Positions 41,848 through 64,000 of a stretch of 64,000 bases of DNA are shown piece after piece; positions within the stretch are counted from its first letter, which is position 1; the number at the start of each line of letters is the position of its first letter. Source of the stretch: Cantharellus purpuraceus (Eukaryota; Basidiomycota; Agaricomycetes; Cantharellales; Hydnaceae); contig JALBUN010000017.1 of NCBI GenBank assembly GCA_025174535.1, positions 558,001-622,000 of the forward strand, given 5' to 3'. A program made the position numbers and the translations under genes. The notes beneath the pieces are model-generated. The model saw only the letters and a list, made by a program, of their open reading frames with translations. It did not search any database and was not told the origin of the DNA.

Positions 41848-43615
41848 TCTGTTGTCTTTAAATGGGGTTTTGCACCGTTAATAGCGAGACTTGAGCTTAA
41901 TCTCCTAGGCTACGAGGTTCACGAGTCGCTCATGTCTGGCGAACTCGTATCACGACCTGTCAGAGAAACTGCTTGAATTTGAGAAGCTGCCTGTAATGAC
42001 TCTCCATTATCCTTCCATCTCTACTTCGCAACAGCAAAGTCTGCAATCACACAAAAGAGCGGCGACATTCCCGCTTTCCCTGATGCTTCCAACGTCTTCT
42101 CAACATTGTGCTATCACGTCTGAAATTCTATTTCCTCCCTCCGTTAACCTTTTATGTTTCCAACTACTAAATCTGGACTTGCTAGTCTAATAGCCAGTCT
42201 ACATTGCGTCTGACGCCTATGGAAGGCTTACAAACTCTAGAGCCATTCCTGCTTCATGTAGGCTCCTTTCTTAAACTATGCACGTCGATTAGAGCTATAC
42301 GCTTTAGCCTTACTATTCCTAAAGCGTATACAGCTCTCCAAGTGTCCGCCAGTTTCTCAATGCTCTGATTGGCACGTGCATTGACGGTCTTTGAAAGATC
42401 ATCACTGGCTCTGGTGGGATCTGAGAGCTGCGCTTTGGATGGATTTATGTGATCGAGTAGGTATGCACACCGTCTATCTATCTGATGGTTCTCTTGTTAT
42501 CAAGTCGGTAAATACTAGTACCCCCACCACCAAACATTTTGCTTGCTGCAGCTGACATCGATGTGAGTTCCTGTGACGAGGCTGATATGAAATTAGTCCT
42601 TCTAACCTCCGGCCGGATTCTTCGGAATTTGTACCCTTGCGACAGCTCCGGATAGGAAGGATATCTCTTCGGAGGTATTTTTGGGTGAGTATAAGGATTG
42701 AACAAATGAGCGTAGAACAACCAATTAGGTCCGTGTTTTTTCTTCCTCTTGTCAGTAGCTTAATAGAACATTGTTTTGATAGGTACGACGACAGGGCATT
42801 GTTGTACCTGCAGCTGATCCTTCGGGTGCAGACCCAGTGGTCGACAACTGTGCTGTCTGAACCGGAATATGTTCTTATTATTAAAAATGCACTATACTCG
42901 GTGCTGTCTTCGATCAATCGTCCTTCAGTCGAGCCCGCGTTCAAAAAGGACTCGGGATGAGTGATCGACGTATTTTGGAAGGGAGTCTTCCGGAAGCCAA
43001 TGATAGAGATGATGAAGAGCAGGACAAAGGCATCAACGATGCGAGGTGGGGAAAGGATGAGGTGCTTGTGATAGCATTCACGCTTTTACTCTAGCCCCTT
43101 GAAGGTAATATGCGGTTGTCAATAAGGCACATCATTTCTGACTCTCAATCAATAGCCAATACCGAACCCTCGCTGCAAAATCACTGGGATTTAAGTGACA
43201 TCATCACATCTCTCAAGCGGCACTTCGCATACGTCTCCGACCCACGCAAGAAGTGCACCTCATGTTGATGCGTCGGATGGCGTCAACGCCTGCCGCTACC
43301 TCTGTATCTGGATTCACATTGCGGCGTACGACACTGACCGAGACTGAGTTGCTACGCGCAACATATAAAAATACCCCTAGACCCCATCATCAGTGTCCGC
43401 GCGCAGGGCCTACAGTTGTTGCGGGGGCTCGTCACTCCATCTTGGTCTCTCACTCCGCAACCCAGGGATACCCCTCCACCGGGCAGGATATGACATTCAG
43501 CGGGTACACACGACTCGACGTGGCACTCACGCGGGTGTTCTATTCGTATTCCTGCAATCAATCTGCGCTACCAATGCGCTGCACGGTCTGGCGTATTGAG
43601 ATCTGAATGAAATCA
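41848..43615. other. gene-poor interval
   Basis: Frames up to 156 codons on both strands overlap and lack motifs. No gene or mobile element recognised. Confidence 0.35.
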
Positions 43616-43619
43616 GTCT

Positions 43620-43780
43620 ACAAATAGTAATTAGCTTCCGTGTGTGCTATAATACGATGGAAACAATCATACCTCAGTTGTGGTCTGAACAACTGAGGAA
43701 ACATGCACATGACACTAGCGTCTACCTATATTGTGTAAGCTGTGGACGCATGTGTAATGGTTATTAGGGCGAATTCCAAT
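43620..43780 (-). repeat. copia 3' LTR remnant
   Basis: Begins on the minus strand right after the polypurine tract GAGGGGGAGT that follows the pol stop codon. It carries a perfect 10-bp hairpin (CCTCAGTTGT..ACAACTGAGG, 43675-43701). The outer end is not defined. Confidence 0.5.
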
Positions 43781-43793
43781 ACTCCCCCTCGAC

Positions 43794-45489
43794 CTAATGA
43801 ACTTTGTTCTTTCTTGAAAATATACCCATCACTTCACGGAACTTTATGTGTTTTGGACCCACAAGTGGTTTTGTGAGTGCATCTGCCAGCATTTGGTCTG
43901 TAGATAAGTGCTTGAATGTGATCTGGTTCATCTCTACCCGCTCCCTGACGAAATGATGGGCCACATCGATATGCTTTGATCAGGCATGAAGTGAGGCATC
44001 TTTTGTGAGTGATATGGTCCCCAGATTATCACAAAAGAGGGTAGTGGCTTTGTTTTGAGGTAGACCTAAACCATCAAGTAAGTTTCTCAACCATAACACT
44101 TCTTTTGCACAATGGCTGGTTGCCATATATTCCGCTTCACAGGATGACACAGCAACAGTCTGTTGTTTCTTTGAGCTCCATGATACAACCCCTTTTCCCA
44201 ATGTAAAGAGATATCCGGATATCGATCGACGCCTATCTGGATCATTTGCCCAGTCAGAGTCAGTATATCCAGTAAGTTTGATGTCCTCTTTTCCTCCCAA
44301 CACTAAAGACATATCTCGGGTACTTTCTAGGTACCTTATGACACATTTAGCAGCCTCCCAATGCTGCCACCCTGGATTTGAGGAATACTGACTGAGTTGT
44401 TGTACAGTGAAACGGATGTCGGGTCTGGTAGTCACTGCCACATACATGAGTGAGCCTACTGCTATTTTTTTTTGACATTATTTTCTTTTCTTCTTCATTG
44501 GTAGGGCTCATTTCCCTGGACAGTCGTACCCCTGTTTCAAATGGGGTTGTGACTGGGTAGGTGTTCTGCATTTTAAATTGGGCTATCATGGTATCAATAT
44601 ATGAGGCCTGAGATAGGGTGACTGTCCTGGCTTTGCGATCGTGGGAGATTGCCACTCCTAGAAGCCAGTGTACTTCACCTAAATCTTTTATGTCAAACAC
44701 GCTTTCCAGGTCAGTTTTAAGCTTCTCCATTTCCCTTTCGGAGCTTGCACATGCTAACATATCATCAACATGAATTGCAACAATTGATGAGTTTCCTTTT
44801 GAGGTTTGGGTGTATATGCAATGATCGGCTGATATGCGCTTGTATCCAAAGTTGGTCATCGTGGTATGTAGTTTTTTGTTCCACTGCCATCCTCCCTGTT
44901 TTAATCTGTATAGCCCTTTTTGGAGTAGTACCACATGGTCCTCCTTCCCTGGTTCCTCATATTCTTTCGGCTGACGCATATAAATCTCTTCCTCTAGATC
45001 CCCATACAAAAAAGCTGTCTTCACGTCAAACTGCCGCATTATCCAATCACATTGAGCACCTATGTGAAGTACAGTATGAATTCCTTCCATGTGTGCAACC
45101 AGCACAAAAGTATCAGTGTAGTCCATTCCTGCAACTTGAGTGAAGCCCTGAGCTACCAGGCAAACTTTATGTTCAACTTCCTGGCCTTCAGCACCCCGCT
45201 TGTTCTGACATATGGGATGGCAGCCAATGATCTTTCTGTCCTTTGGTATGAGTGATAATGGGACGAGTTTCCACACTTTCCTCTCCCTTATTGATCCCAT
45301 TTCTTTGTCCATAGCTTTCCGCCACTTGGCATTGTCCTTTGATTGCATAGCTTCTGCCCAAGTTTTTGGGTCTTGTGGGTTATCTGCTATCAGCGTTGCT
45401 AGTACGTTTTCTGTCCCTCCGCTGAGAAAGTTATTCAACTCTTCTATAGGATTTAGAGTTTGATGTGACTTAGTATATATTGTCTCCAA
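43794..45489 (-). pseudogene. Ty1/copia pol fragment (reverse transcriptase and RNase H)
   Basis: 3' half of a copia polyprotein. RT: AKWRKAMDKEMGSIRERKVW, DVKTAFLYGDLEEEIYMRQP, IVAIHVDDMLACASSEREME (HVDD in place of YVDD), DLGEVHWLLGV. RNase H: RPDIRFTVQQLSQYSSNP, TGYTDSDWANDPDRRRSISG, SSCEAEYMATSHCAKEVLWL, HIDVAHHFVRERVEM, DMLADALTKPL-like end. There is a frameshift at a T run near 44464 and an in-frame TGA after TKDASLHA where Arg is expected. Gag, protease and integrase are missing. The 5' end is cut off at the junction with the plus-strand gypsy fragment. Confidence 0.88.
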
Positions 45490-47033
45490 ATGGACTTACT
45501 ATGGACTCCAGCAAAGTCCAGGTAATACAAGATTGGCCAGAACCCTGCAAAGTCAAAGATGTGCAATCCTTCTTAGGATTTGCCAATTTCTATAGGCATT
45601 TCATATTCAACTACTCCGATCTCACAGTTCCACTGACTCATTTAACTTGTAAAGGAACTCTGTGGGAGTTCTTGGACTCCTGCCAGACATCCTTTGAAAT
45701 GTTAAAGAGAGCTTTCACTACAGCTCCGGTCTTATCACGATGGAACCCAGGATCTCTGATCATTGTAAAAACTGACACCTCCAACTACACACTGGCAGCC
45801 ATTCTATCAACTGTCTCTCCAGCAGACAATGAGGTTCATCCAATAGCTTTCCATTCTTGGACTTTCACTCTGGCAGAACTCAACTATGATGTCCATGATA
45901 AAGAACTACTCGCAATCTTTGAAGCTTTCAAGTCCTGGTGACATTACCTTGAAGGATCTCCAACTCTGGTCGATGTCATCACAGACCACAAGAACCTCAA
46001 AATACTACCAAACTCCTTACTAGGCGGCAAGCCCGCTGGTCTGAATTCCTGTCCCAGTTTAATCTGGTAATCCATTTCTGTCCCAGCAAACTCAGCACAA
46101 AACTGGACTCATTAACTAGATGATGGGACATCTATCCTAAAGGGAGGAAATGATTACACAGCAGTAAACCTGCATAATCTTAGGCCTGTGTTCACTAACA
46201 AACAGTTAACCACTTCCCTCCAAGCAACAACATTCTATTCCCCAGTCCTCCAAGCAGCCATCACTATGGATGTTGATACACTCCACTCCAATATCTGATC
46301 TGCACTCTGATCAGATCCAGCCATCTCCAGACATCTCATTAAACTGACCAATCACTGGTCTATTGACCTGGAAGGCTTACTCCATCTTGACAACTGCATC
46401 TATGTTCCTGACGTGAACAATCTCTGACTCCACGTACTCCAGAACAAACATGACCATCTGATCTCCGGTGATTTTGGACAGAACTGAACTATAGATCTAG
46501 TCAGGTGGGACTATGTCTGGCCTGAACTCCGTGGTTCCATTAAGTCCTACATCAAGTCTTGTACCACTTGGATGCACTCAAAATCACAGAGACATTGTCC
46601 TTATGGACTACTCAAGCAAATCCCCAATCTGGAGAGTCTGTAGAACTCCATATCCATGGACTTCGTCAAGAAGCTCCCAGCATCCTCTGGTTACAACACC
46701 ATCTTAGATATTGTGGAATGCCTCACCAAGCAATCCATTTTTATTGCTATGATTGATACCATCACAGCTCCTATGCTTGCAAAACTATTCGTGCTCCATG
46801 TCTTCTCCAAGCATGGAGTTCATGTCCTCCTTTTTCTGAACCCTCAGAAAAGCTTTGGACATCAAACTCCATTTCACCTCTGGATACCACCCGGAAGCTG
46901 ATGGACAAACTGAACAAATGAACCAGACTCTGGAACAGTACCTCCGAGTCTACTGCAACTACCAACAGGACAACTGGTCCGACTTTGTTAATTGGGTGTC
47001 TTAGTTCACACTGTTGCACAGAACTCAACCAAG
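45490..47033 (+). pseudogene. Ty3/gypsy pol fragment (RT, RNase H, integrase)
   Basis: Tf1/sushi-like gypsy pol. SSKVQVIQDWPEPCKVKDVQ, SFLGFANFYRHFIFNYSDLT, PLTHLTCKG, TDTSNYTLAAILS and ELNYDVHDKELLAIFEAFKS span the end of RT and the RNase H. Integrase traces follow in broken frames: WDYVWPELRGSIKSYIKSC, MDFVKKLPASSGYNTILDIV, and SGYHPEADGQTEQMNQTLEQ near 46880-46930. It has many stops and frameshifts. It ends abruptly at 47033, where the 3' LTR of element G begins, so G inserted into it. Confidence 0.82.
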
Positions 47034-47263
47034 TGTATTGGTTGGGCGATGTGCTGTACAGTGTGGTAGTTACTAAGTTCTGTCTACTATATGTGGACCC
47101 ACATGTGTACTTGGGTCCACTGGCTTACATAATAACTATACATATGCACCCTATGGGCGCATATATCTACCAAGAGGACAGCATTCCTTAATGGAATGCT
47201 GCATACACTAATTATAACTATCTAGCTACATACTATAGTAAGTAAGTACCTTGGGTACTTACA
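47034..47263 (-). repeat. 3' LTR of element G
   Basis: 230 bp, on the minus strand TGTAAGTACC...CCAATACA (TG..CA ends). It is preceded by the polypurine tract AAAAAGGGGAGGG (47276-47264). The outer side cuts the plus-strand gypsy pol. No matching 5' LTR is in the window. Confidence 0.75.
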
Positions 47264-47280
47264 CCCTCCCCTTTTTGAAT

Positions 47281-49255
47281 GAGGCACAATCTCATTCAGC
47301 ACCTTTTAATCATACAGCTCCTTATGAAGCTGTTCCAATGAGTTGGTGTCCATATGATCATCTTGTCCATATGGCTCTGGAGGGGGATGGCTCTCAGTCA
47401 TCCCTGATATGGTTGCAGTATCCTCATCCACTTGAATGGATGAGGAGGATGCAATTGCTACTGCAGCATCCTGATCAAGTTCACGATTGAGTTGATTGTG
47501 ACCTAAATGCTCAGCAAGAGAGCGTTTAGCAGCTTTATGAGCTGCTTGGGAGACTCCCTGAGTCTCCTGCTTTCACTTACCAACCCTGGTGGGCTGGTTA
47601 AATGCTGCTCCAGAGGCAATGCATTTAGCAAACTCCTCTAATATAGCAGCATGATCGGGGGTGATGCCCCCCAATCATCCCAACCAGAGCGCAAGCTCTA
47701 ATTCAGTATGTTCTTTGGGGGAGCGATTCCCCCAATCATATGCTCCAGTGACTGAAGTGCAAAAGGTGTCACCAATAGTTGGTGAGAACTTTTGACCACT
47801 GGTCAATAACCCCCAGTGGCCAGGATTCTGCAACATAGTCCAGAGGTTCTTCTTAAATACAGAAGAACCCTTCTTGGGAGTGGCCTTCTGTAGCCACATC
47901 CAGACGTCCACATCGGACAAGTTCATAGTACCATCCAACTCCTGTCAGATGGCTGGGGGGACTCCATTAGGGTTCACTTGCCACCCCTGTATGAGGGCAA
48001 GTGTGTCTACCAGTGTGGTTGGTAGAGTGACAATAAGACTTGCGTTATCAGCGCGAGCCAGCAGAGTCATTCTCTTGATGACTCTGTGCATCGGTACAGT
48101 CTGTTCCACGAACAGTGTGGCCAATGCTTTTTTATGGAGCGATATGAACTCCAGAATGTCTGTATCACAGATGTCGAACCAGTCTGCCCTGATAGGGGTG
48201 GACTTGCCCAGAGGTTGTGGCAGGTGGCCAGTGACTGCTCTGGGAGGGTCAGCTGCAGTTATGAACCATGGTGCTCATTTGGGGAATGATTTCCCCACAT
48301 TGGCATGCTTGAGGGCATGCCCAAAATCATCCCAGTGTTTGCGATAATTCATACGCTGGGCTTCCTCCAGCATCTTCAATGCTGGGTCTTTTAAGGTACA
48401 GCTGGTGTCACCAGCCATATACTCCTTTCGAAGCTGATCAATCTCAGCTTCAATTTCTGATAGGGCAAACTCAAAGAGTTTTCCTGGTTGCTTAGCACCC
48501 TTGGGGATGCTAGCCAGGAGGAGACCACAATCATGGTCGTATCCTTCCCAAATTGGGTCAGTATCGTCCCAATCTTGACCTTCGAACCATTGAGGGTTGA
48601 CCCAAGGCAATTTTCCCAGGAGATCATCCTCTTTGGTGAGGTTGATCATTTCCTGTGATGATGAAGCCACGGGATGTGACGACATAATGGCAGGCAATGA
48701 TTTGCCTGCCATAGCACATGATAGCGATGCTACTGGGGCCAAGCGCACCGTCATGAGCTTGGTCTTGAATGTAGGAGGTGCTCTATCAGCAGCCTCCTTC
48801 AGTGTTTTTAATTCATCTCTGAGACAAGTTACTTCAGACTTCTCATTGTCGAGAAGTCCTTCAAGTTCTTGGACCTGTGCAAACAGGTCCGAGTTGTCCT
48901 TGTACATCTTATCATAGTCTTCACAATAAGGTGTTGTGACATCATCTTTGATGTCATGTATAAGTTGCGGCCACATGACTCTTAATGCCCTTTCCCCTGA
49001 AGCGGTGGAAAGATATAGTCAGCCTCCATTTTGGGCCTCAATTAAGTGTGACACATATGCATCACACTTGTTGCACCCATGAGGGTGATGGATGGCAGCA
49101 CCACCATGCCATCCACCAATTTTCCAGGTCATCTCATCTTGATGACCCCTGATCATATCTGCAGCACTAGTTACCGGTGCTGCAGCTGTGGAAGTTTGTT
49201 CAACTATTGGATGCTTGTCCTGAGCATCCATCATCTCCCTTCTGAGAGATGACAT
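47281..49255 (-). pseudogene. element G downstream ORF (ORF3), interrupted by stops
   Basis: A frame of about 650 codons lying between pol and the 3' LTR, open except for about five TGA codons and one TAA. It begins MSSLRREMMDAQDKHPIVEQ; HHPHGCNKCDAYVSHLI has the spacing of a small His/Cys metal site. YCEDYDKMYKDNSDLFAQVQ with ELEGLLDNEKSEVTCLRDEL is a coiled coil. Trp-rich segments (NPQWFEGQDWDDTDPIWEGY; VDVWMWLQKATPKKG) follow. Stops sit after FPK, PPAI, WLG and VGK. A piece of another copy is at 62.8-63.0 kb. It is not an envelope (no signal peptide or membrane helix seen) and could be a displaced gag-like or accessory protein. Function unknown. Confidence 0.65.
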
Positions 49256-49693
49256 TTTGATGGAGGGGGGGGGGTTGTGGTGGTTTGAAGAAACACCGCT
49301 AGCATTTTATGGCTGAGCTTGAAAATTCTTTATTGAGAATTTTCCAGTGACTATGTCACATGGGTGTAATGTGATTAATTATCGCTTACCCATTTCATGC
49401 TACTATGAGTAGCATGATGGTGAACTGCTCCCTATGGACACAGTTTTTTCTGCCATAGAGCTGCCTGTTGTTATGGTAGCTCTATCCTTATCTAGGAACT
49501 ACCATTAGTCAAGGTGGTTCCTCCTCCCCTCATTGAGCTACTGTCATTGATGGTAACTCTTGTTGCATCCTGCTAGGAGCTACCTTTATTCTTGGTAGCT
49601 CCACTTCTCCCCCTTGAGCCCCATTAGATCTTTGGGGCTCTATCTCTCTGAGAACTAATGTCTATGAGGTAGTTCTCATGCTCAAATCACCCC
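49256..49693. other. hairpin-rich spacer between pol and ORF3 of element G
   Basis: Non-coding. It holds consecutive perfect inverted repeats, for example 49321-49344 (arms 9, loop 6), 49396-49416 (8/5), 49617-49639 (7/9) and 49650-49677 (8/12), plus a run of 11 G near 49266. It would be the 5' leader of any ORF3 transcript. Confidence 0.7.
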
Positions 49694-50191
49694 TCAAAGC
49701 TCTAAATAATCATCTAGAGCTTCTAGGTCCTTACACGATGTGTAAGGTTCCCAGATGACGTCTCCCAACGTCCATAGAACTTGAAATTCAAGTTCTTTAT
49801 CGCTTATCCATTGATGAGCGATGATTTCATTGATGAGCCACTCCTGCTCGTCGTTGTTCCCAAAGTTGTAAAATGACTTTGCTTCCTGTTTTGGGAATCT
49901 CATCTCATCATTCAGCACATATGGTCGAATGAGACTGATGTGAAATGTAGGCATAATACGCCTACTAGTCAGTTCTGGTGGCAGTTCCAGTGTCACCGTC
50001 GAAGCTTTATTATGGGCTTCAATTATTTTATAGGGCCCAATATACCTGGGCACTAGTTTGCTGGTTCTACCCTCAGGTAGAGTCAAGTTTTTCATTGAGA
50101 GGTAGACTTTGTCACCTCTCTGGAAGGTTGGGCCTTCCTGACATTTCTTATTGGCATGAAACATCTGAACAATGAGACTTTCTATAATTGT
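49694..50191 (-). pseudogene. element G integrase C-terminus and chromodomain
   Basis: VQMFHANKKCQEGPTFQRGD, KVYLSMKNLTLPEGRTSKLV and PRYIGPYKIIEAHNKASTVT form the SH3-like integrase C-terminal domain. EWLINEIIAHQWISDKELEF and QVLWTLGDVIWEPY form a chromodomain, which in chromoviruses directs insertion to histone-marked chromatin. The aromatic cage is only partly recognisable. The frame is open to its TGA. It is cut off upstream by solo LTR-A. Confidence 0.85.
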
Positions 50192-50196
50192 GTCAT

Positions 50197-50710
50197 TGTT
50201 ATGACTATATTCATTAATGTCCAGATCCCCGTCCAATCCACTCAGATCCCCGCGCATATGAAATCTATACTCCATTTGGAAACCGCCGTCTCCATCTACC
50301 TGTCTGATTGTCACCACTGATTCCACCCATCCGTCTCCGGTTCTGATTGATGCATCAGCATCACCATAGGAACCCAGACATCCGTCCCCATCAGACTCAG
50401 ACATGCTCATGTAAGGCCGTCGGCCTCGGAGACCCATCACCGGAGTAATTATTATTAGATTTCAAATATGTATTTAAGTTGCCCGACTGGGGACTTCATT
50501 CCCCAGTTCGAATATTGAATCATGCCTAGTTCCTAAGTCTGATCCTAACTCTCTAAGTCGTACTCCATCTCCGAAATCTCAGACACCGGTATTAGTGAGG
50601 GCGCAGCATATAAGCTGAAGCCAAGTCCGTTCTGACCCCCATGATGTGCTCCGACTCCGACCCAATCTCCAACCCAATCTCCAACCCCCAATTGGACCTA
50701 GTGCATAACA
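50197..50710. repeat. solo LTR-A inserted in integrase of element G
   Basis: 514 bp with TGTTATG at one end and CATAACA at the other, flanked by perfect 5-bp target duplications GTCAT (50192-50196 and 50711-50715). Removing it and one GTCAT rejoins the pol frame at LLVVHD/TIIESLIVQMF. The same LTR recurs at 55063 and 59884. It contains a 12-bp CCCAAYCTCCAA tandem repeat near one end (2 copies here). Confidence 0.88.
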
Positions 50711-50715
50711 GTCAT

Positions 50716-53250
50716 GCACCACTAGCAGGTTCATTTGGGCCTGCTGTGCAAATTGTTTGACACCCTTGAACTTGGTGTCATTGTTAATGGGCATGCCTAT
50801 CCTAGGCATATACCCGTGGTTAAGCTCAAACAGAGTAAACCCCGTTGTTGAGCTTATGTTGGAGTTTAGCGCAAACTCCACCATTGGACACTTGTGTGCC
50901 CAATCTTTCTGATCACTTCATGGTCAATTATTATCTCGACCAGCCTCCTCCCCTTCAGGAACACTGAGCGGGGTATACAGATGACATTGTGTTTGTATAT
51001 ATTTTTGGTTTATATTAGACCATCACGCACACCAAATCGTGTGTGCTCTTTAGGTGCTTCCAGCACCTTAGAAAGGACAGTATCCTTTCTATATGTGCCT
51101 CATACAATCTGCACGAGGTTGATCCCATGCTTGACATGGGATCACAATGGTGTTCCATCATCATCTGATGACATCACTCCAACGTCCTCTATTTCTTTAG
51201 AGGAATTAGAATCATCATTCAATGATTCTGTTTGAACATTGAGTACTTCAGCTTCTAGCACTCTGTTTTCTTTTTTCTTGAGCAGTCGCCTTCAGGTGAC
51301 TGCTGCTGTCCTGATCTCAACAAACTGTTCTGTGGGGAGCAGTTCTCCTTCAGGGTTGAGACATACATCTGCACTCATGTAGATGTAGTTGGGATGACTC
51401 TCTGTTGGGGAGTCATCAGCATAGTAGCATGATAGACAATCCACCACTTTGTTCTCTACCCCATCTATATGCAGGGTGGTGAAGATAAGAACTCCCACCA
51501 CCTAATCTGTCTAGGAGACAAGTTCTTTTGGGTCTCAAAGTATTCGAGACCCTTGTGGTCAGTTACTAGGACTAACTTTCATCCTAGTAGCCTATCTTCC
51601 CATCTCATTAGGGCTTTGAGCACAGCTATAGTCTCATGCTCATGAGTCTTATAGTGCTGTTGTGCAGCACTAAATTTCTTGGATAGGAATCTGGCAGGCC
51701 GACAGGTCTGCCAATCTTTTCCTTGCCCATAGATGGCTCCAACTCCAGTCTTGGAGCCATCAGTAATAACCCAAATAGTATCGGGGTTATTGACATCGAT
51801 GGGCTTCAATATTGGAGCCCTACATGCTAGGAACTTAATGCTTTCAGAGCATTTCTCCAGCAGCAGTGTCCATAAGAATGGATGATTATTATGAGCACAA
51901 CCTGATAATGGGGTTGTGTATGCAGTTATGTCTGGCATATAGTGCATCAGATACTGCACTAGTCCAAGAAAACATTGGACTTCGTGGTATGACCTAGGTT
52001 GTCTCCATTCTCATATTCACTGCATTTTATCAGCATCTGCATGCACACCTTGGTCATCTATTAGGTGACCAAGGCAATCCATACTTGTTGAGTATAGATT
52101 GATCTTATCCTTGCTCAGGAACATATGTACTTTCTTGAGCTCAGTGAACACCATCTCTAGGTGGTGTTCATGCTCTCATATAGTACGAGAGTACATAAAT
52201 ATGTCATCCAGATATACATGAATGAATCTTCTGATATATTCTCAGAAAATGGCAGTCATGAGCTGCTGAAATGTTGAGGGGGCATTGCAGTCCCCTTGCT
52301 GCATGACCTGACTGACGAATGTCCCCAAGATGGTTGCAAATGCTGTCTTGGGTATATCTGTTGGTCTGATGCATATCTGTTCATACGCTTCAGACATATC
52401 GAGTTTAGATCAATATGTACAGCAGGCAACATTGTGTCTAATGTTGTCCTGATTGGGGAAGGGTGTTACATCCTTCACCATATTATCATTCTGTTCATGC
52501 AAGTCAAACATGGTGCAGAGCTTCCCATTTTTTTGGGAATGCATAGCATTGGTACAACCTGCTGGGCTGTAGCCGATACCCACCATTTAGCAGTGGTGTA
52601 TTGCAGGACTTTCTCTGAAAGTTCTGCTTGGTAGTGCTCTGGACACTTAGGCAATCAATAATGTATTTGCTTGTCAGGATCCATGAGATTAATCTCGTGG
52701 TTAACTTCCCTAAATGGGGGAAGTTCTAAGGGTATGCTGCCAAATAGGTCAGCGTACTTTTCTTTCCATTGATCCCTCAACTGAGGGATCTGACCAGCCA
52801 TGTAAGTGGTTGATCCTTCACGAGACAAAGCTATTCGCATCATGTTCTTATTTGGATCCTCCATTGGGGGGTGCTTTACTGAGTCTAGTCCTTCTTTTAG
52901 GAAGGACTGCATTGTGGGTAGCTCGTGTTTAGAGTTACCCCCTTGGCATCATTTATTCATGCCAACACTCTTTCTTCATATTGAGTTTATACCCCATGAC
53001 AGGGTATGAAGAGCATTGGTATTATGCTCTCCATTGGTGGGGACTTCTTGGGCCATTAAAGTCCAGGCATATTCCTAGCTTTCATAGGAATGGGGTACTG
53101 AGTATTACATCATAATACTCAATGTTGGTGATATCAAAATATTATAAAATGTTCCAACTACCAAACCTTATGGTACTCCTGCTCCCAACGCATGCTAATT
53201 GCAGTGCGATGGGTTGCTCTAGTGTGAATGTCTTCATACCTGTCGCACGT
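50716..53250 (-). pseudogene. element G pol copy 1: RT, RNase H, truncated integrase
   Basis: Protease end GMKTFTLEQPIALQLACVGS near 53240, then KEKYADLFGSIPLELPPFRE, PMLCIPKKNGK, SKLDMSEAYEQICIRPTDIP, VHVYLDDIFMYSRT (YLDD active site), CLGHLIDDQG, FLGLVQYLMHYMPDITAYTT, TDGSKTGVGAIYGQGKDWQT and TDHKGLEYFETQKNLSPRQI (RNase H), HIDGVENKVVDCLS. Right after EIIIDHE the frame jumps to PMVEFALNSNISSTTGFTLF: the zinc-binding and DDE core of integrase, several hundred residues, is deleted. TGA stops occur at conserved Arg sites. A one-base loss in a T run at about 52529 breaks the KKNGK motif in this copy only. Confidence 0.85.
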
Positions 53251-54626
53251 TGTTGGTTTTCTCAAGGAATAGATCCTATAAGCCTGCACGCAACGGTCCT
53301 AGCAAACAGATGGTGTGTAATGCAGTTGTTCAGCACTCCAAAGATCAATCAGGTTGAGGGGTAGAGGTAGCACTGAGTAACAGGAAAGTGGAATAGTGCT
53401 CTGTGGTTGGATGGGCTGGGAGCAAAAGGTCGGTCCTGATGGCTGATCGTGCTCTGTGACTGGATGAGGATGGAGAGCCCGGTTGGGAGGTACGTGAAAG
53501 CTGGTTTCAGGAGAAGCGACCTCTCGGTGGCAGAGGGAAATCTGATCGTTGAACCAAGGTGCTTTACCTCAGTGTAGAGCTGATGGATTGTGATGTAGAG
53601 CGTAGAGCATAGACTTAGAGTGTGGGCTGAAAACTTCTTGATTGATTCCAAAGGCAAAAACTAGCGCCCTTTTATATACAAATCCCCAGGGCACAACGAC
53701 ACAATATGTGGAGCAAATGATGTGATATGATGCAAGGAATGCTGATCAAGCCAGCTGACAAAGCATGTGAAGTTGAACTACTAATGGGGAAATCATGGAG
53801 AAATGAAGCGACAGATAGGGGTAATCTTTGTAAGAATAGGAGGTGATGAGTAATAAAAGAACCAAAAATAGAACAAGGATGAGTAAGTTGTGTATGAATG
53901 AATTAAAAGATGAAACAGGGGTGAGTCATATAAAAGAACAATAGAAATGTCCACCAATACCATCTTCCATACGGCTCCGAAGGTAAATTGACCCTGAGTC
54001 ACATGAGGACTTCAGTCAGCATCCACAACAAATACTCCTTATTGTCTTAGTGATCTGTCTCCATATGGTATCCTGTTCCAAGGGTATTTGGTCCCTTTGC
54101 CTGACACGATGTAACTTGAGTTGGATTGAAGTGGGAGGATAGGTCGGCGATGGCAACTGAAATTCTACCTCATGTTTGACTCGTCTATCCATGTTACGAT
54201 ATAGAGGTGAAATGCTGAGGAATGTATATGGTTCAATGGAATTGTGAAAGAATATGGGACCAATGGCATAAGAGAGACATGGTGGGGATCTTGGACATTG
54301 AAAGAGTTTTGGAAGTATTTTGACATGTGGAGGTGGCTTAACATGTCCATGGAGCTCGGCATATTTTTGATAGTCATCTGTGTCCAGAGACCAGTGTGAC
54401 GTATTATTAGAAGCGATGTTGGAGAGGGGAATAGAATTGGAAGCCATGTGAATGATGATGAAAGGATTGGTGTGAATTGAAGGCTGATAATGATCGATGG
54501 CGATGAAACACAAGTGACAATCGATGGCTGGAATTAGAGACTGAGGTAGAGAGGGAGTTGCAGTGCTATTTAAAAGTTTGATACAAAAAGGCACTGGCGG
54601 AGTTGGACTGTCAGAGTGGTTCAATA
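53251..54626 (-). mobile_element. element X, copy 1 (1376-bp insertion in protease of G)
   Basis: Bounded by TGTTGG at one end and TCAATA at the other, with CACGT (53246-53250) and TACGT (54627-54631) as a target duplication bearing one change. Excising it rejoins the protease frame. On the minus strand it contains a 202-codon ORF (54624-54016; MASNSIPLSNIASNNTSHWS lies inside) of unknown family, then a TATA-like TATATAAAAGGGCGC (near 53675) and further text without a long ORF. It may be a long solo LTR or a non-autonomous LTR element. It lacks the hairpin lattice of its host. Confidence 0.65.
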
Positions 54627-54631
54627 TACGT

Positions 54632-55062
54632 CCTCGATGCGTCCTGGCTCGTCAATGTGTGAATTCAGGGGATACCATTATCCCCTCACTTCCACTGTCT
54701 AATAGACAGTGAGCTAGTGTTCCACCAATCTCCCAATACCCAGAGATTGTTTTGTTGTCTATGCATGGTCTATCTGGTTGCACTGTCAACTTCTGTCAGC
54801 TCCTATGATTATATATAGGTTCAGCCGATCTGTTGACACTGACAGCAGCTATATGCAGCTGTCGTGATTCCCTGCTTCTCCGGAATCTTGTTGCACTACA
54901 GAAACACACTGCATAGGTGTGTCTCAGTGGAATTTGATCATTGGGTCAAATTTGTATTGCATTAGAGTGATACATTGGTGTAGCCTCCCTTTCAGGGGCA
55001 TCATCTTGGTTGTCCCATTTGTATGGGGTGACCTCTTCATCCCATTCATCAGCCACTTCTAT
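54632..55062 (-). pseudogene. element G gag end and protease start, copy 1
   Basis: EVADEWDEEVTPYKWDNQDD is followed by a TGA-broken stretch and then LLDSGSEGIMVSPEFTH, a retropepsin active site (DSG). It is continuous with the segment beyond X. Confidence 0.8.
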
Positions 55063-55540
55063 TGTTATGACTATATTCATTAATGCCCAGATCCCCATCC
55101 GATCCACTCAGATCCCCACACATATGAAATTTATACTCCATTTGGAAACCACTACGTCTCCATTTTCCTGTCCGATTGTCACCACCAATTCCACCCATCC
55201 ATCTCCAGTTCTGATTGATGCATCAGCATCACCATAGGAACCCAGGCAGATCCGTATGGCCGTCGGCCTCGGAGACCCATCACCGGAGTAATTATTATTA
55301 GATTTCAAATATGTATTTAAGTTGCCCGACTGGGGACTTCATTCCCCAGTTCGAATATTGAATCACGCCTAGCTCCTAAGTCTGATCCTAACTCTCTAAG
55401 TCATACTCCATCTCCAAAATCTCAGACACCGGTATTAGTGAGGGCGCAGCATATAAGCTGAAGCCAAGTCCGTTCTGACCCCCATGATGTGCTCCGACTC
55501 CGACCCAATCTCCAACCCAACCTCCAACCCAACCTCCAAC
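55063..55540. repeat. chimeric LTR at the duplication junction
   Basis: The left flank is that of LTR-B (TCTAT, 55058-55062) and the right flank is that of LTR-A (ACTAGCAGGTTC). Left-end variants match LTR-B. The last 35 bp or so of the LTR plus the GTCAT copy are missing. It has 3 copies of the 12-bp repeat. Confidence 0.85.
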
Positions 55541-58071
55541 ACTAGCAGGTTCATTTGGGCCTGCTGTGCAAATTGTTTGACACCCTTGAACTTGGTGTCA
55601 TTGTTAATGGGCATGCCTATCCTAGGCATATACCCGTGGTTAAGCTCAAACAGAGTAAACCCCGTTGTTGAGCTTATGTTGGAGTTTAGCGCAAACTCCA
55701 CCATTGGACACTTGTGTGCCCAATCTTTCTGATCACTTCATGGTCAATTATTATCTCGACCAGCCTCCTCCCCTTCAGGAACACTGAGCGGGGTATACAG
55801 ATGACATTGTGTTTGTATATATTTTTGGTTTATATTAGACCATCACGCACACCAAATCGTGTGTGCTCTTTAGGTGCTTCCAGCACCTTAGAAAGGACGG
55901 TATCCTTTCTATATGTGCCTCATACAATCTGCACGAGGTTGATCCCATGCTTGACATGGGATCACAATGGTGTTCCATCATCATCTGATGACATCACTCC
56001 AACGTCCTCTATTTCTTTAGAGGAATTAGAATCATCATTCAATGATTCTGTTTGAACATTGAGTACTTCAGCTTCTAGCACTCTGTTTTCTTTTTTCTTG
56101 AGCAGTCGCCTTCAGGTGACTGCTGCTGTCCTGATCTCAACAAACTGTTCTGTGGGGAGCAGTTCTCCTTCAGGGTTGAGACATACATCTGCACTCATGT
56201 AGATGTAGTTGGGATGACTCTCTGTTGGGGAGTCATCAGCATAGTAGCATGATAGACAATCCACCACTTTGTTCTCTACCCCATCTATATGCAGGGTGGT
56301 GAAGATAAGAACTCCCACCACCTAATCTGTCTAGGAGACAAGTTCTTTTGGGTCTCAAAGTATTCGAGACCCTTGTGGTCAGTTACTAGGACTAACTTTC
56401 ATCCTAGTAGCCTATCTTCCCATCTCATTAGGGCTTTGAGCACAGCTATAGTCTCATGCTCATGAGTCTTATAGTGCTGTTGTGCAGCACTAAATTTCTT
56501 GGATAGGAATCTGGCAGGCCGACAGGTCTGCCAATCTTTTCCTTGCCCATAGATGGCTCCAACTCCAGTCTTGGAGCCATCAGTAATAACCCAAATAGTA
56601 TCGGGGTTATTGACATCGATGGGCTTCAATATTGGAGCCCTACATGCTAGGAACTTAATGCTTTCAGAGCATTTCTCCAGCAGCAGTGTCCATAAGAATG
56701 GATGATTATTATGAGCACAACCTGATAATGGGGTTGTGTATGCAGTTATGTCTGGCATATAGTGCATCAGATACTGCACTAGTCCAAGAAAACATTGGAC
56801 TTCGTGGTATGACCTAGGTTGTCTCCATTCTCATATTCACTGCATTTTATCAGCATCTGCATGCACACCTTGGTCATCTATTAGGTGACCAAGGCAATCC
56901 ATACTTGTTGAGTATAGATTGATCTTATCCTTGCTCAGGAACATATGTACTTTCTTGAGCTCAGTGAACACCATCTCTAGGTGGTGTTCATGCTCTCATA
57001 TAGTACGAGAGTACATAAATATGTCATCCAGATATACATGAATGAATCTTCTGATATATTCTCAGAAAATGGCAGTCATGAGCTGCTGAAATGTTGAGGG
57101 GGCATTGCAGTCCCCTTGCTGCATGACCTGACTGACGAATGTCCCCAAGATGGTTGCAAATGCTGTCTTGGGTATATCTGTTGGTCTGATGCATATCTGT
57201 TCATACGCTTCAGACATATCGAGTTTAGATCAATATGTACAGCAGGCAACATTGTGTCTAATGTTGTCCTGATTGGGGAAGGGTGTTACATCCTTCACCA
57301 TATTATCATTCTGTTCATGCAAGTCAAACATGGTGCAGAGCTTCCCATTTTTTTTGGGAATGCATAGCATTGGTACAACCTGCTGGGCTGTAGCCGATAC
57401 CCACCATTTAGCAGTGGTGTATTGCAGGACTTTCTCTGAAAGTTCTGCTTGGTAGTGCTCTGGACACTTAGGCAATCAATAATGTATTTGCTTGTCAGGA
57501 TCCATGAGATTAATCTCGTGGTTAACTTCCCTAAATGGGGGAAGTTCTAAGGGTATGCTGCCAAATAGGTCAGCGTACTTTTCTTTCCATTGATCCCTCA
57601 ACTGAGGGATCTGACCAGCCATGTAAGTGGTTGATCCTTCACGAGACAAAGCTATTCGCATCATGTTCTTATTTGGATCCTCCATTGGGGGGTGCTTTAC
57701 TGAGTCTAGTCCTTCTTTTAGGAAGGACTGCATTGTGGGTAGCTCGTGTTTAGAGTTACCCCCTTGGCATCATTTATTCATGCCAACACTCTTTCTTCAT
57801 ATTGAGTTTATACCCCATGACAGGGTATGAAGAGCATTGGTATTATGCTCTCCATTGGTGGGGACTTCTTGGGCCATTAAAGTCCAGGCATATTCCTAGC
57901 TTTCATAGGAATGGGGTACTGAGTATTACATCATAATACTCAATGTTGGTGATATCAAAATATTATAAAATGTTCCAACTACCAAACCTTATGGTACTCC
58001 TGCTCCCAACGCATGCTAATTGCAGTGCGATGGGTTGCTCTAGTGTGAATGTCTTCATACCTGTCGCACGT
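55541..58071 (-). pseudogene. element G pol copy 2
   Basis: Same content as copy 1, with the same integrase-core deletion and TGA positions. The KKNGK motif is in frame here (T run one base longer), so copy 2 keeps the ancestral state at that site. Confidence 0.85.
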
Positions 58072-59447
58072 TGTTGGTTTTCTCAAGGAATAGATCCTAT
58101 AAGCCTGCACGCAACGGTCCTAGCAAACAGATGGTGTGTAATGCAGTTGTTCAGCACTCCAAAGATCAATCAGGTTGAGGGGTAGAGGTAGCACTGAGTA
58201 ACAGGAAAGTGGAATAGTGCTCTGTGGTTGGATGGGCTGGGAGCAAAAGGTCGGTCCTGATGGCTGATCGTGCTCTGTGACTGGATGAGGATGGAGAGCC
58301 CGGTTGGGAGGTACGCGAAAGCTGGTTTCAGGAGAAGCGACCTCTCGGTGGCAGAGGGAAATCTGATCGTTGAACCAAGGTGCTTTACCTCAGTGTAGAG
58401 CTGATGGATTGTGATGTAGAGCGTAGAGCATAGACTTAGAGTGTGGGCTGAAAACTTCTTGATTGATTCCAAAGGCAAAAACTAGCGCCCTTTTATATAC
58501 AAATCCCCAGGGCACAACGACACAATATGTGGAGCAAATGATGTGATATGATGCAAGGAATGCTGATCAAGCCAGCTGACAAAGCATGTGAAGTTGAACT
58601 ACTAATGGGGAAATCATGGAGAAATGAAGCGACAGATAGGGGTAATCTTTGTAAGAATAGGAGGTGATGAGTAATAAAAGAACCAAAAATAGAACAAGGA
58701 TGAGTAAGTTGTGTATGAATGAATTAAAAGATGAAACAGGGGTGAGTCATATAAAAGAACAATAGAAATGTCCACCAATACCATCTTCCATACGGCTCCG
58801 AAGGTAAATTGACCCTGAGTCACATGAGGACTTCAGTCAGCATCCACAACAAATACTCCTTATTGTCTTAGTGATCTGTCTCCATATGGTATCCTGTTCC
58901 AAGGGTATTTGGTCCCTTTGCCTGACACGATGTAACTTGAGTTGGATTGAAGTGGGAGGATAGGTCGGCGATGGCAACTGAAATTCTACCTCATGTTTGA
59001 CTCGTCTATCCATGTTACGATATAGAGGTGAAATGCTGAGGAATGTATATGGTTCAATGGAATTGTGAAAGAATATGGGACCAATGGCATAAGAGAGACA
59101 TGGTGGGGATCTTGGACATTGAAAGAGTTTTGGAAGTATTTTGACATGTGGAGGTGGCTTAACATGTCCATGGAGCTCGGCATATTTTTGATAGTCATCT
59201 GTGTCCAGAGACCAGTGTGACGTATTATTAGAAGCGATGTTGGAGAGGGGAATAGAATTGGAAGCCATGTGAATGATGATGAAAGGATTGGTGTGAATTG
59301 AAGGCTGATAATGATCGATGGCGATGAAACACAAGTGACAATCGATGGCTGGAATTAGAGACTGAGGTAGAGAGGGAGTTGCAGTGCTATTTAAAAGTTT
59401 GATACAAAAAGGCACTGGCGGAGTTGGACTGTCAGAGTGGTTCAATA
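58072..59447 (-). mobile_element. element X, copy 2
   Basis: Duplicate of the first X, one T/C difference noted (58318), with identical boundaries and the same 202-codon ORF (59445-58837). Confidence 0.65.
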
Positions 59448-59452
59448 TACGT

Positions 59453-59883
59453 CCTCGATGCGTCCTGGCTCGTCAATGTGTGAATTCAGGGGATACCATT
59501 ATCCCCTCACTTCCACTGTCTAATAGACAGTGAGCTAGTGTTCCACCAATCTCCCAATACCCAGAGATTGTTTTGTTGTCTATGCATGGTCTATCTGGTT
59601 GCACTGTCAACTTCTGTCAGCTCCTATGATTATATATAGGTTCAGCCGATCTGTTGACACTGACAGCAGCTATATGCAGCTGTCGTGATTCCCTGCTTCT
59701 CGGGAATCTTGTTGCACTACAGAAACACACTGCATAGGTGTGTCTCAGTGGAATTTGATCATTGGGTCAAATTTGTATTGCATTAGAGTGATACATTGGT
59801 GTAGCCTCCCTTTCAGGGGCATCATCTTGGTTGTCCCATTTGTATGGGGTGACCTCTTCATCCCATTCATCAGCCACTTCTAT
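59453..59883 (-). pseudogene. element G gag end and protease start, copy 2
   Basis: Same as copy 1 apart from C/G at 59702. It ends at the TCTAT target duplication of LTR-B. Confidence 0.8.
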
Positions 59884-60406
59884 TGTTATGACTATATTCA
59901 TTAATGCCCAGATCCCCATCCGATCCACTCAGATCCCCACACATATGAAATTTATACTCCATTTGGAAACCACTACGTCTCCATTTTCCTGTCCGATTGT
60001 CACCGCCAATTCCGCCCATCCATCTCCAGTTCCGATTGATGCATCAGCATCACCATAGGAACCCGGACATCCGTCCCCGTCGGCCTCGGAGACCCATCAC
60101 CGGAGTAATTATTATTAGATTTCAAATATGTATTTAAGTTGCCCGACTGGGGACTTCATTCCCCAGTTCGAATATTGAATCACGCCTAGCTCCTAAGTCT
60201 GATCCTAACTCTCTAAGTCATACTCCATCTCCAAAATCTCAGACACCGGTATTAGTGAGGGCGCAGCATATAAGCTGAAGCCAAGTCCGTTCTGACCCCC
60301 ATGATGTGCTCCGACTCCGACCCAACCTCCAACCCAACCTCCAACCCAACCTCCAACCCAACCTCCAACCCAACCTCCAACCCCCAATCGGACCTAGTGC
60401 ATAACA
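59884..60406. repeat. solo LTR-B inserted in gag of element G
   Basis: 523 bp, TGTTATG...CATAACA, flanked by TCTAT at 59879-59883 and 60407-60411. Removing it rejoins the gag frame at EKVSAI/EVADEWDEEV. It carries five 12-bp CCCAACCTCCAA repeats. Confidence 0.88.
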
Positions 60407-60411
60407 TCTAT

Positions 60412-60560
60412 AGCTGATACTTTTTCGTCTAGATGGTCCTTGCGATCATCCATTGTTTCTTCATGTTCTCCCTCTATCAGGGAGAATCCATCTACCTTAT
60501 CCTCCACTATGTGTTTTGGAACCCGCAAAATTATGGTGTTAGGGCAAACTCTAAATCACC
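60412..60560 (-). pseudogene. element G gag segment upstream of LTR-B
   Basis: ILRVPKHIVEDKVDGFSLIE and GEHEETMDDRKDHLDEKVSA lie in frame with the segment beyond LTR-B. The 5' continuation is lost in stops beyond 60560. Confidence 0.6.
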
Positions 60561-61620: not shown

Positions 61621-61917
61621 TTGATCAGAGACATCTGAGCTTGAATTCAGGCCGAATGCCTGGTCCAAAGGTGGAGAGCTGGCTGTGTGAAGGTTTGTGG
61701 GTGCCTATGGGTCCACAACTGTAGCACAGCAGAAATAAATCATTCTGGGCCGAGTTCTGCATGGAATATTCCTGAAAAAATATGGAAAAATAGAGAATAA
61801 GTCCATTCCAGGTACAAGCATCAAATATATGCTGATATTTAGGAATGGAAAAGCAAAGTATAGCACATTGGTGCTGCATAAATAGGATTTGATAGGGAAA
61901 AGGTGGTTCCCATACAG

Positions 61918-62827
61918 CTGACCTATCCTCCCACTTCAATCCAACTCAAGTTACATCGTGTCAGGCAAAGGGACCAAATACCCTTGGAACAGGATACCAT
62001 ATGGAGACAGATCACTAAGACAATAAGGAGTATTTGTTGTGGATGCTGACTGAAGTCCTCATGTGACTCAGGGTCAATTTACCTTCGGAGCCGTATGGAA
62101 GATGGTATTGGTGGACATTTCTATTGTTCTTTTATATGACTCACCCCTGTTTCATCTTTTAATTCATTCATACACAACTTACTCATCCTTGTTCTATTTT
62201 TGGTTCTTTTATTACTCATCACCTCCTATTCTTACAAAGATTACCCCTATCCATCGTTTCATTTCTCCATGATTTCCCCATTAGTAGTTCAACTTCACAT
62301 GCTTTGTCAGCTGGCTTGATCAGCATTTCTTGCATCATATCACATCATTTGCTCCTCATATTGTGTTGTTGTGCCCTGGGGATTTGTATATAAAAGGGCA
62401 CTAGTTTTCGCCTTTGGGATCAATCAACAAGTTTTCAGCCAACACTCTAAAGTCAAAGTCCATGCTCTAAGTCTATGCTCTACGCTCTATATCACAATCC
62501 ATCATCTCTACACTGAGGCAAAGCACCTTGGTTCAACGATCAGATTTCCCTCCGCCACTGAGAGGTTGCATCTCCTGAAACCAGCTTTTGCATACCTCCC
62601 AACTGGGCTCCCCATTGTCATCCAGTCACAGAGCATGATCAACCATCTGGACCGTCCCTTTCACCCCATCCTCCTCCAACCACAGAGCACTATTACACTT
62701 TCCTGTTACTCAGTGCTACCCCTACCCCTCGACCTGATTGTTCTTTGGCGTGCTGAACAACTGCATTACACACCATCTGTTTGCTAGGACTGTTGCATGC
62801 AGGCTTATAGGATCTATTCCATAAGCG
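61918..62827 (+). mobile_element. element X, inverted and truncated copy
   Basis: Matches the reverse complement of 53251-54145, roughly 10% diverged, from the end of the X ORF through the TATA box to the X terminus. It ends beside a fragment of G ORF3. It is older than the two duplicated copies. Confidence 0.75.
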
Positions 62828-63045
62828 AACCGACAGCGGGCTGGTTAAGTGCTGCTCCAGAGGCAATGCATTTAGCAAACTCCTCTAATATAGCAGCATG
62901 ATTGGGGGTGATGCCCCCCAATCATCCAAACCAGAGTGCAAGCTCTAATTCAGTATGTTCTTTGGGGGAGCGATTCCCCCAATCATATGCTCCAGTGACT
63001 GAAGTGCAAAAGGTGTCACCAAGAGTTGGTGAGAACTTTTGACCA
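62828..63045 (-). pseudogene. fragment of a second element G copy (ORF3 part)
   Basis: About 97% identical to 47597-47815, same orientation, with GGGCTGGTTAA(G/A)TGCTGCTC at one end and AGAACTTTTGACCACT at the other. X is inserted next to it. Confidence 0.8.
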
Positions 63046-63049
63046 CTCT

Positions 63050-64000
63050 GATCTCTGAAAACATCACTCTGATCTGAACTTCAACTTCAAAATTTATAAG
63101 TCAACCCCATTACTTCTCTTAGTTCACTCTGAAATTACATTCAAGAAGTCATTTTGTTTCTACAAGTTATACATCATGCTTCCTTCTTCCCTTCCCCTTG
63201 TCCACCTCAGCTTCTGTCTCCAACTCACTATCATCTTTCACATTGTTAAGAAAAGATATGGAGGGGTGTTGTGGGTGAGTGTAAAATGATGGTGAGGGAT
63301 GGTGGCGAAGTAGATTTTGAATAGGGGAGCAATTACTGCAAGGATGCAGATATATGCGGGGTCGATGGAAAGATATTGTTTAGTAGAGTAATGTTACCAA
63401 ATATCAGAATATTTGGTTGAAAACTGGGACTTCTGCGAAATATTTGAGCAGAAATGGGAATAGCAACACTTCGAAAAAGTGTTTGCTTAATAGAAATGGA
63501 TGTAATGATCCAAATCGTTCGTAATTTGAGATAGCAATAATTGATGCAATATCCTAATGGGATATGCAAAAGATTTCCAATCGAATAGGTCGTTTAGGAG
63601 TTATTCCAGGAACGACAGAAAGTTGACACAAGCTGTTTGTTTGCAGCTTGGAAGGGATTAAGAGTAATGAATCTCCTTATTGATACTCGTACACAGTTGT
63701 AGTTAATATACAATTTGACAATCACATGATAAAAAAGCCTTTTAGTAAGATTGAAACATATGATAAAAGAAATGATGTGGATACTGATAATATGTGATGT
63801 CATGGGGAAAAACTTTTTACAGAGAAAGGAGTTTTTACCCGTTTGACTTGAGGTTTATGACGAATGAAAATCATCATAATACCTCCCTTTTTGAGTAGTA
63901 ACCACCCCCGTAGAACGAAAGGATGGCTCACAAAATAAAATCGAAAAACACCTTCTCCTCATCCCTTAATCAAAAAATTCCCAAACTTTTCACAACTTTT
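63050..64000. other. AT-rich interval at window end
   Basis: No supported gene; short ORFs without motifs. Confidence 0.35.

Follow-up and report, generated by a model that had tools for sequence, protein, structure and literature searches.

Why would the coding sequence of a retrotransposon be packed with small, perfect hairpins? The question is raised by element G, which occupies part of a 64,000-nucleotide stretch of the Cantharellus purpuraceus genome (contig JALBUN010000017.1, positions 558,001 to 622,000; hereafter the window). The original prediction described dense short perfect inverted repeats in G, and all six of the examples that it named are present, two of them with adjusted geometry: 51733-51760 is really 51732-51761 with an 11-bp arm, and 52771-52790 has a 9-bp arm and 2-nt loop or an 8-bp arm and 4-nt loop, depending on the loop rule. 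Some 15 hairpins with arms of at least 7 bp had been claimed for 51.5-53.1 kb, where 18 non-overlapping ones are counted. The existence of this lattice is near certain.

Hairpins were counted as non-overlapping perfect inverted repeats with arms of at least 7 bp and loops of 3-15 nt, and the whole window was scanned kilobase by kilobase with 20 dinucleotide shuffles of each. Kilobases 47-48, 48-49, 49-50, 51-52 and 56-57 contain 14, 10, 15, 16 and 15 hairpins, against 0.55-1.0 in shuffles, and the shuffled 51-53 kb region yields 1.0-1.2 per kb. The first 46 kb of the window hold 28 hairpins, about 0.6 per kb, which is the chance level. Density switches at element borders. Inside G it ranges from 15.0 per kb in the long terminal repeat (LTR) to 8.0 at the integrase end, with 8.5 and 10.6 in the protease-side pieces and intermediate values elsewhere (Table 1). 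In two inserted sequences it drops to 1.9 and 2.1 (LTR-A, two copies counted) and to 0.7 and 0.7 (X), with 0 in an inverted copy of X; the copia stretch at 43000-46900 holds 5 hairpins against 2.6 expected. LTR-A, X and copia lie outside the lattice, as had been proposed. Codon-preserving randomization reproduces the density no better than dinucleotide shuffling does. The extra 3' open reading frame (ORF) of G has 27 hairpins against a mean of 2.5 (maximum 7 of 300 shuffles), and the region encoding reverse transcriptase (RT) and RNase H has 9 against 0.8 (maximum 4 of 300). When CpG decay is allowed for, the counts are 36 in the 3' ORF and 38 in RT, compared with 5.5 and 4.6 in shuffles. Short direct repeats, by comparison, are at chance (12 versus 9.2 expected).

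Judged from its sequence, G is a decayed Ty3/gypsy-type LTR retrotransposon carrying an extra 3' ORF. Its gene order on the minus strand is gag, aspartic protease, RT, RNase H and integrase (with H2C2 and SH3_Tf2-1 domains), followed by a non-coding stretch, the extra ORF, a polypurine tract and the LTR; gag and protease were read in another copy, L010. Profile matches exceed the cut-off for RVP_2 (21.9 bits; cut-off 20.3) and H2C2 (33.5 bits; cut-off 25.5) in pieces of L010 and for SH3_Tf2-1 (55.1 bits; cut-off 30) in the window, and PF17919/PF17917 are carried by homologues. The Ty3_capsid match reaches only E 1.4e-4 and 21.8 bits, under the cut-off of 29.1, and a segment after the integrase that resembles by eye the chromodomain of the chromovirus branch gives no match to the Pfam chromodomain at E 0.1. 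The 267-bp LTR has TG..CA ends and opens with a 9-bp hairpin, in the window as in L010. Three metagenome homologues, at 42-48% identity, are known for the extra ORF of about 650 codons, of which a 247-residue piece matched no Pfam family above cut-off. Rfam gives 0 matches at gathering score within 46900-56000. The window copy is broken by internal stops in the 3' ORF, by the LTR-A and X insertions and by a tandem duplication. The interval originally assigned to G, 47264-60560, therefore needs amending. It also holds three LTR-A, two X and the duplication, and the lattice continues just outside it in the 3' LTR. Its second half is not independent evidence, because the duplication is 98% identical.

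Table 1. Parts of element G, its insertions and their hairpins in the window (L010 coordinates refer to another copy of G)
Feature	Position	Strand	Remarks
3' LTR of G, TGTAAG..GACA on sense strand	46997..47263	-	4 hairpins in 267 bp; matches L010:717-985
Polypurine tract AAAAAGGGGAGGG	47264..47276	-	Adjoins 3' LTR; read from sequence
Extra 3' ORF, 649 codons to last stop	47306..49255	-	5 internal stops; 26 hairpins in 47308-49255, 13.3 per kb
Non-coding stretch between integrase end and 3' ORF	49256..49693	-	6 hairpins, 13.7 per kb
Integrase C-terminal part (SH3_Tf2-1)	49694..50191	-	4 hairpins, 8.0 per kb
Inserted LTR-A	50197..50710	.	Outside lattice; 1 hairpin
Integrase N-part, RNase H, RT, protease end	50711..53244	-	30 hairpins in 50711-53175, 12.2 per kb
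Inserted X	53245..54657	.	Outside lattice; 1 hairpin in 53200-54600
G segment beyond X	54658..55062	-	Lattice back; 4 hairpins in 54601-55070; matches L010:3387-3775
Tandem copy of 50195-55540 (LTR-A, G, X, G, LTR-A)	55061..60357	.	98% identical
Further G fragment	60404..60514	-	Matches L010:3284-3394

The tandem arrangement of the LTR-A / G / X / G / LTR-A unit at 50195-60357 is as expected from unequal exchange between G-inserted LTR-A copies. Further on, the inverted X copy (61917-62841, 92% identical) is followed by a short G-like fragment with 3 hairpins at about 62831-63050.

Is the lattice peculiar to the window copy, or to the element? In the genome searched (40.15 Mb in 50 contigs), two G DNA queries match at least 60 and at least 69 pieces, mainly at 84-94% identity, and more diverged relatives are also present. 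The lattice is present in all six diverged subfamily loci fetched: stretches of 1.6-2.5 kb contain 9-28 hairpins where 1.6-2.55 are expected. For a tally of G against other DNA, segments longer than 300 bp were taken from the window and from fetched loci L009-L054, with L016 left out as a duplicate and L011 retained. G DNA (139,921 bp, 66 segments) contains 1498 hairpins versus 127 in shuffles; other DNA (155,595 bp, 72 segments, control loci among them) contains 179 versus 112. Lattice clusters outside the first G reference amounted to three groups and one minisatellite, and these three groups count as G partly by choice of reference, because pieces of L009, L010 and L019 were joined to it before the tally; afterwards only the minisatellite, in L050, stayed dense. 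This 34-bp repeat (L050:1200-1632) lies within a G relative and has 13 units of one hairpin each, which make up 13 of the 25 hairpins at that locus.

Control loci in the same genome give a different picture. Among 20 fetched RT loci, 14 are linked by DNA similarity as one co-resident gypsy family (88-95% identity, 66-69% for L043; CpG ratios 0.32-0.95). Twelve of these 14 lack a lattice, with 1-3 hairpins per 1.8 kb where 0.7-1.55 would be expected; the other two, L032 and L039, have 6 hairpins each, mostly (4 of 6 and 5 of 6) past the end of family similarity. The remaining six control loci have 0 or 1 hairpin. Beside the gypsy family, L032:1-420 and L039:1-480 show hairpins with arms of up to 13-14 bp in sequence that is AT-rich by eye. 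The description of the lattice as a property of the element is borne out: the LTR, gag/protease side, RT, integrase, non-coding stretch and 3' ORF all carry it, and other DNA does not. One scan of viral contigs detected no relative.

The hairpins have a characteristic size and base pattern. With loops of 3-12 nt, the excess falls on arms of 6-11 bp: 26 versus 9.8 expected at 6 bp, 23 versus 1.9 at 7 bp, 20 versus 0.8 at 8 bp and 12 versus 0.1 at 9 bp, with 3 arms of 10 bp, 2 of 11 bp and none of 12 bp or more. Arms of 2-3 bp are at chance. Loops of 3-10 nt predominate, with a weaker excess up to 15 and little above. The G parts common to the window (5184 bp) have 129 distinct hairpin centres for which one copy or more is perfect; with the upstream part included, there are 200 distinct hairpins, 148 of them present in at least three copies. 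Among these 200, the closing pair is C-G in 61 and G-C in 23; A stands at the flanks in 90 and 88 and T in 20 and 33, and the final loop base is A in 86. Along the 5' arm, the purine share is 0.38-0.39 at the three loop-adjacent positions, 0.59-0.66 over positions 6-8 and 0.48 at position 9, where hairpins are few. The codon phase of least constraint is the commonest by simple count, at 17 of 38.

Both strands appear to share in the folding. A function in sense RNA alone should let G.U replace Watson-Crick pairs more often than A.C does, and the observations run otherwise: stems with G.U number 59 (8.6 expected) and stems with A.C 78 (11.9 expected), fixed non-CpG mismatches comprise 2 G.U, 7 A.C and 11 others, and shared mismatches include 66 G.U and 84 A.C. 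The absence of a G.U preference is what is expected where both polarities must pair. In one 961-nt stretch, the sense strand folds at z -12.1 and the antisense strand at z -13.95 (20 shuffles each).

These properties are united by selection for local self-folding of G single strands in both polarities, a tentative explanation that is favoured here even though its probability falls somewhat short of even. It is preferred because one account would cover Watson-Crick pairs that show no leaning to G.U, the equal folding of the strands, loops low in GC, arms that stay short and proteins that are maintained, and because Qbeta replicase work indicates that such a rule can evolve (PMC6913131). The source copy would have been an end-to-end chain of small Watson-Crick hairpins, accommodated in the coding frames, with arms of 6-11 bp, A-rich flanks and loops that are GC-poor and mainly 3-10 nt long. 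In the copies the lattice is directly visible, and their number points to its presence in the source, from which the G copies may have arisen in a burst. A strand that snaps fast into many short hairpins should anneal poorly to its complement, so that sense and antisense RNA, or RNA and complementary DNA (cDNA), would form less long duplex, with arms remaining too short to count as long double-stranded RNA (dsRNA). The element would then be shielded from dsRNA-triggered RNA interference (RNAi) or from dead-end duplex. A bolder and rather doubtful version holds that the whole G genome has been recoded as an anti-annealing lattice in both polarities that evades long-dsRNA sensing, keeping sense, antisense and cDNA strands single, an anti-RNAi counter-defence written in synonymous sites.

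Several observations weigh against selection for self-folding. Arms of 4-5 bp are raised only slightly (175 versus 141 and 52 versus 38.5), and graded stability selection should lift them more. The A at hairpin flanks is a sense-strand signal, which a purely two-strand rule does not predict. Lineage variation beyond CpG decay is scarce, leaving little in which compensatory change could show. Pooled over copies, stem sites are no more conserved than others (0.140 versus 0.139), and stems defined from diverged loci give 0.106 versus 0.139 (p 0.066). In the comparison with 128 metagenome proteins, from which decayed codons were removed, RT codon-level means lean against stems (0.663 versus 0.743, p 0.06). 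Finally, at sites of amino-acid change in metagenome homologues, pairability is not preserved (0.819 versus 0.812, 9 hairpins), and the exact hairpins of G are therefore probably absent from those lineages.

Three apparent signs of constraint were examined and set aside. Compensatory change seemed to be indicated by 33 of 902 pairs showing two Watson-Crick states that are both shared; sliding the partners by 1-3 positions left 1-3. All 33 pairs, however, include a CpG-context site by a lenient test and half-changed states are common, which fits independent CpG decay in both arms and is not read as covariation. Where a variant occurs in at least three copies, it is a CpG-type change at 203 of the 222 sites in stems and at 233 of the 277 sites elsewhere. 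Stems of the window copy likewise seemed about twice as conserved as other sites, a difference that was gone once stems were pooled over copies. With stems defined from five other single copies, the values are 0.084-0.115 versus 0.134-0.138 (p 0.003 to 0.26), under the same ascertainment as for the window stems, where the scarcity of shared variants is largely an effect of ascertainment. Single-copy substitutions stand at 0.158 in pooled stems and 0.140 elsewhere (p 0.23). Better conservation of stem codons, apparent at first, was lost after removal of decayed codons; pooled matches to the metagenome proteins in stem and other codons are 0.746 versus 0.742 for RT, 0.629 versus 0.594 for the 3' ORF and 0.684 versus 0.559 for integrase, and codon-level tests for the latter two give p 0.66 and 0.33.

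The strongest rival is mutational. The original prediction had offered a palindrome-making mutation process, and its sequence-blind form is disfavoured by implant simulations. Implants placed at random, at quasi-palindromes, or at random with simulated CpG decay yield C-G and G-C closing pairs at about equal rates, an even purine profile and an A share of 0.27-0.34 at flanks, whereas real hairpins have C at the closing pair at 0.31 versus G at 0.09, and A at flanks at 0.44-0.47. Loop GC is 0.380, compared with 0.438 (standard deviation 0.014, lowest 0.412) in 30 random-implant simulations. Since blind implants miss all four features, the hairpins look shaped by folding and not by copying alone, and some extra gating must be assumed. 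Template switching gated by hairpin physics, in which the RT of G stalls at nascent-cDNA hairpins, uses one arm as the template for the other and then switches back, keeps its standing as a less probable alternative. Each cycle would make imperfect hairpins perfect, with purifying selection on proteins filtering the outcome. This process would explain why the pairs are of Watson-Crick type and G.U is no more favoured than A.C, and it accounts for hairpin perfection and for the sharp 6-11 bp excess, with 4-5 bp arms barely raised, about as well as selection does. Restriction of the lattice to one element in a shared host also fits. Two published precedents bear on it: one argues for conversion in nematomorph mitochondria from missing imperfect repeats (PMC6649704), the other that RNA stems arise and persist through template switching (PMC8794818). 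Against it, the arms of G show no donor/recipient polarity (30 hairpins divide into 13 in favour of the 5' arm, 10 in favour of the 3' arm and 7 ties; p 0.40), and stem codons are without clear damage relative to homologues.

Selection for structured RNA, the other mechanism originally suggested, is awkward in its sense-only form, whether as genome-scale ordered RNA structure or as dispersed packaging signals for Gag or the translation machinery. The strong fold of the sense strand and the A at loop ends and flanks on that strand are in its favour, but the equally good antisense fold of the stretch examined, the lack of G.U preference and the lack of a dominant loop motif among 105 hairpins (the top 4-mer, AATA, occurs 9 times versus 2.8) make it improbable. 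An origin in composition, coding constraint, repeat expansion or an assembly artefact has nothing in its favour, is contradicted by the dinucleotide and codon-preserving shuffles, the direct-repeat control, the spread of loci over many contigs and the control families, and has almost no probability left.

Under selection for self-folding and under gated template switching alike, inverted repeats this dense within coding DNA are unexpected. A rate about ten times chance, coding parts included, suggests strong pressure on single-stranded copies to self-fold. If selected, the lattice shows how far structural demands, as a second code, can bend a coding genome, and it is a natural instance of a design rule for duplex-resisting single strands; if mutational, it points to a palindrome-making step in reverse transcription that is strong and specific to the element.

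How does G compare with known systems? Among the titles and abstract openings that literature searches listed, with subscription papers mostly outside them, no comparable retroelement appeared. Like other Ty3/gypsy elements, G has protease, RT, RNase H, an integrase with H2C2 and SH3_Tf2-1, an LTR and a polypurine tract; it differs from them in the extra 3' ORF and the lattice, which the co-resident gypsy family lacks. In RNA viruses, genome-scale ordered RNA structure is spread over the whole coding genome and is imperfect, with G.U pairs, and is not known to consist of discrete perfect hairpins of 7-11 bp. The structure of G similarly covers the whole coding genome but consists of perfect hairpins with no G.U preference. 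RNAs evolved in vitro with Qbeta replicase gain local structure and leave less G and C unpaired, resembling G, and this is explained there by reduced sense-antisense duplex and hence less dsRNA; they are in-vitro replicons, and the passages drawn on describe no chain of short perfect hairpins (PMC6913131). Template-switch hairpins share perfect Watson-Crick stems, made or repaired by one-arm copying, but are events in RNA genes and not an element-wide lattice (PMC8794818). Closest in form are the nematomorph mitochondrial genes, whose coding palindromes have arms of up to 284 bp. There, as in G, perfect repeats lie within coding sequence with the protein kept and no excess of imperfect ones, and the least-constraining codon phase is favoured, which in G is the commonest by count alone. 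The excess in G ends at 11 bp, in contrast, and spans a whole nuclear retrotransposon, including its LTR and non-coding parts (PMC6649704).

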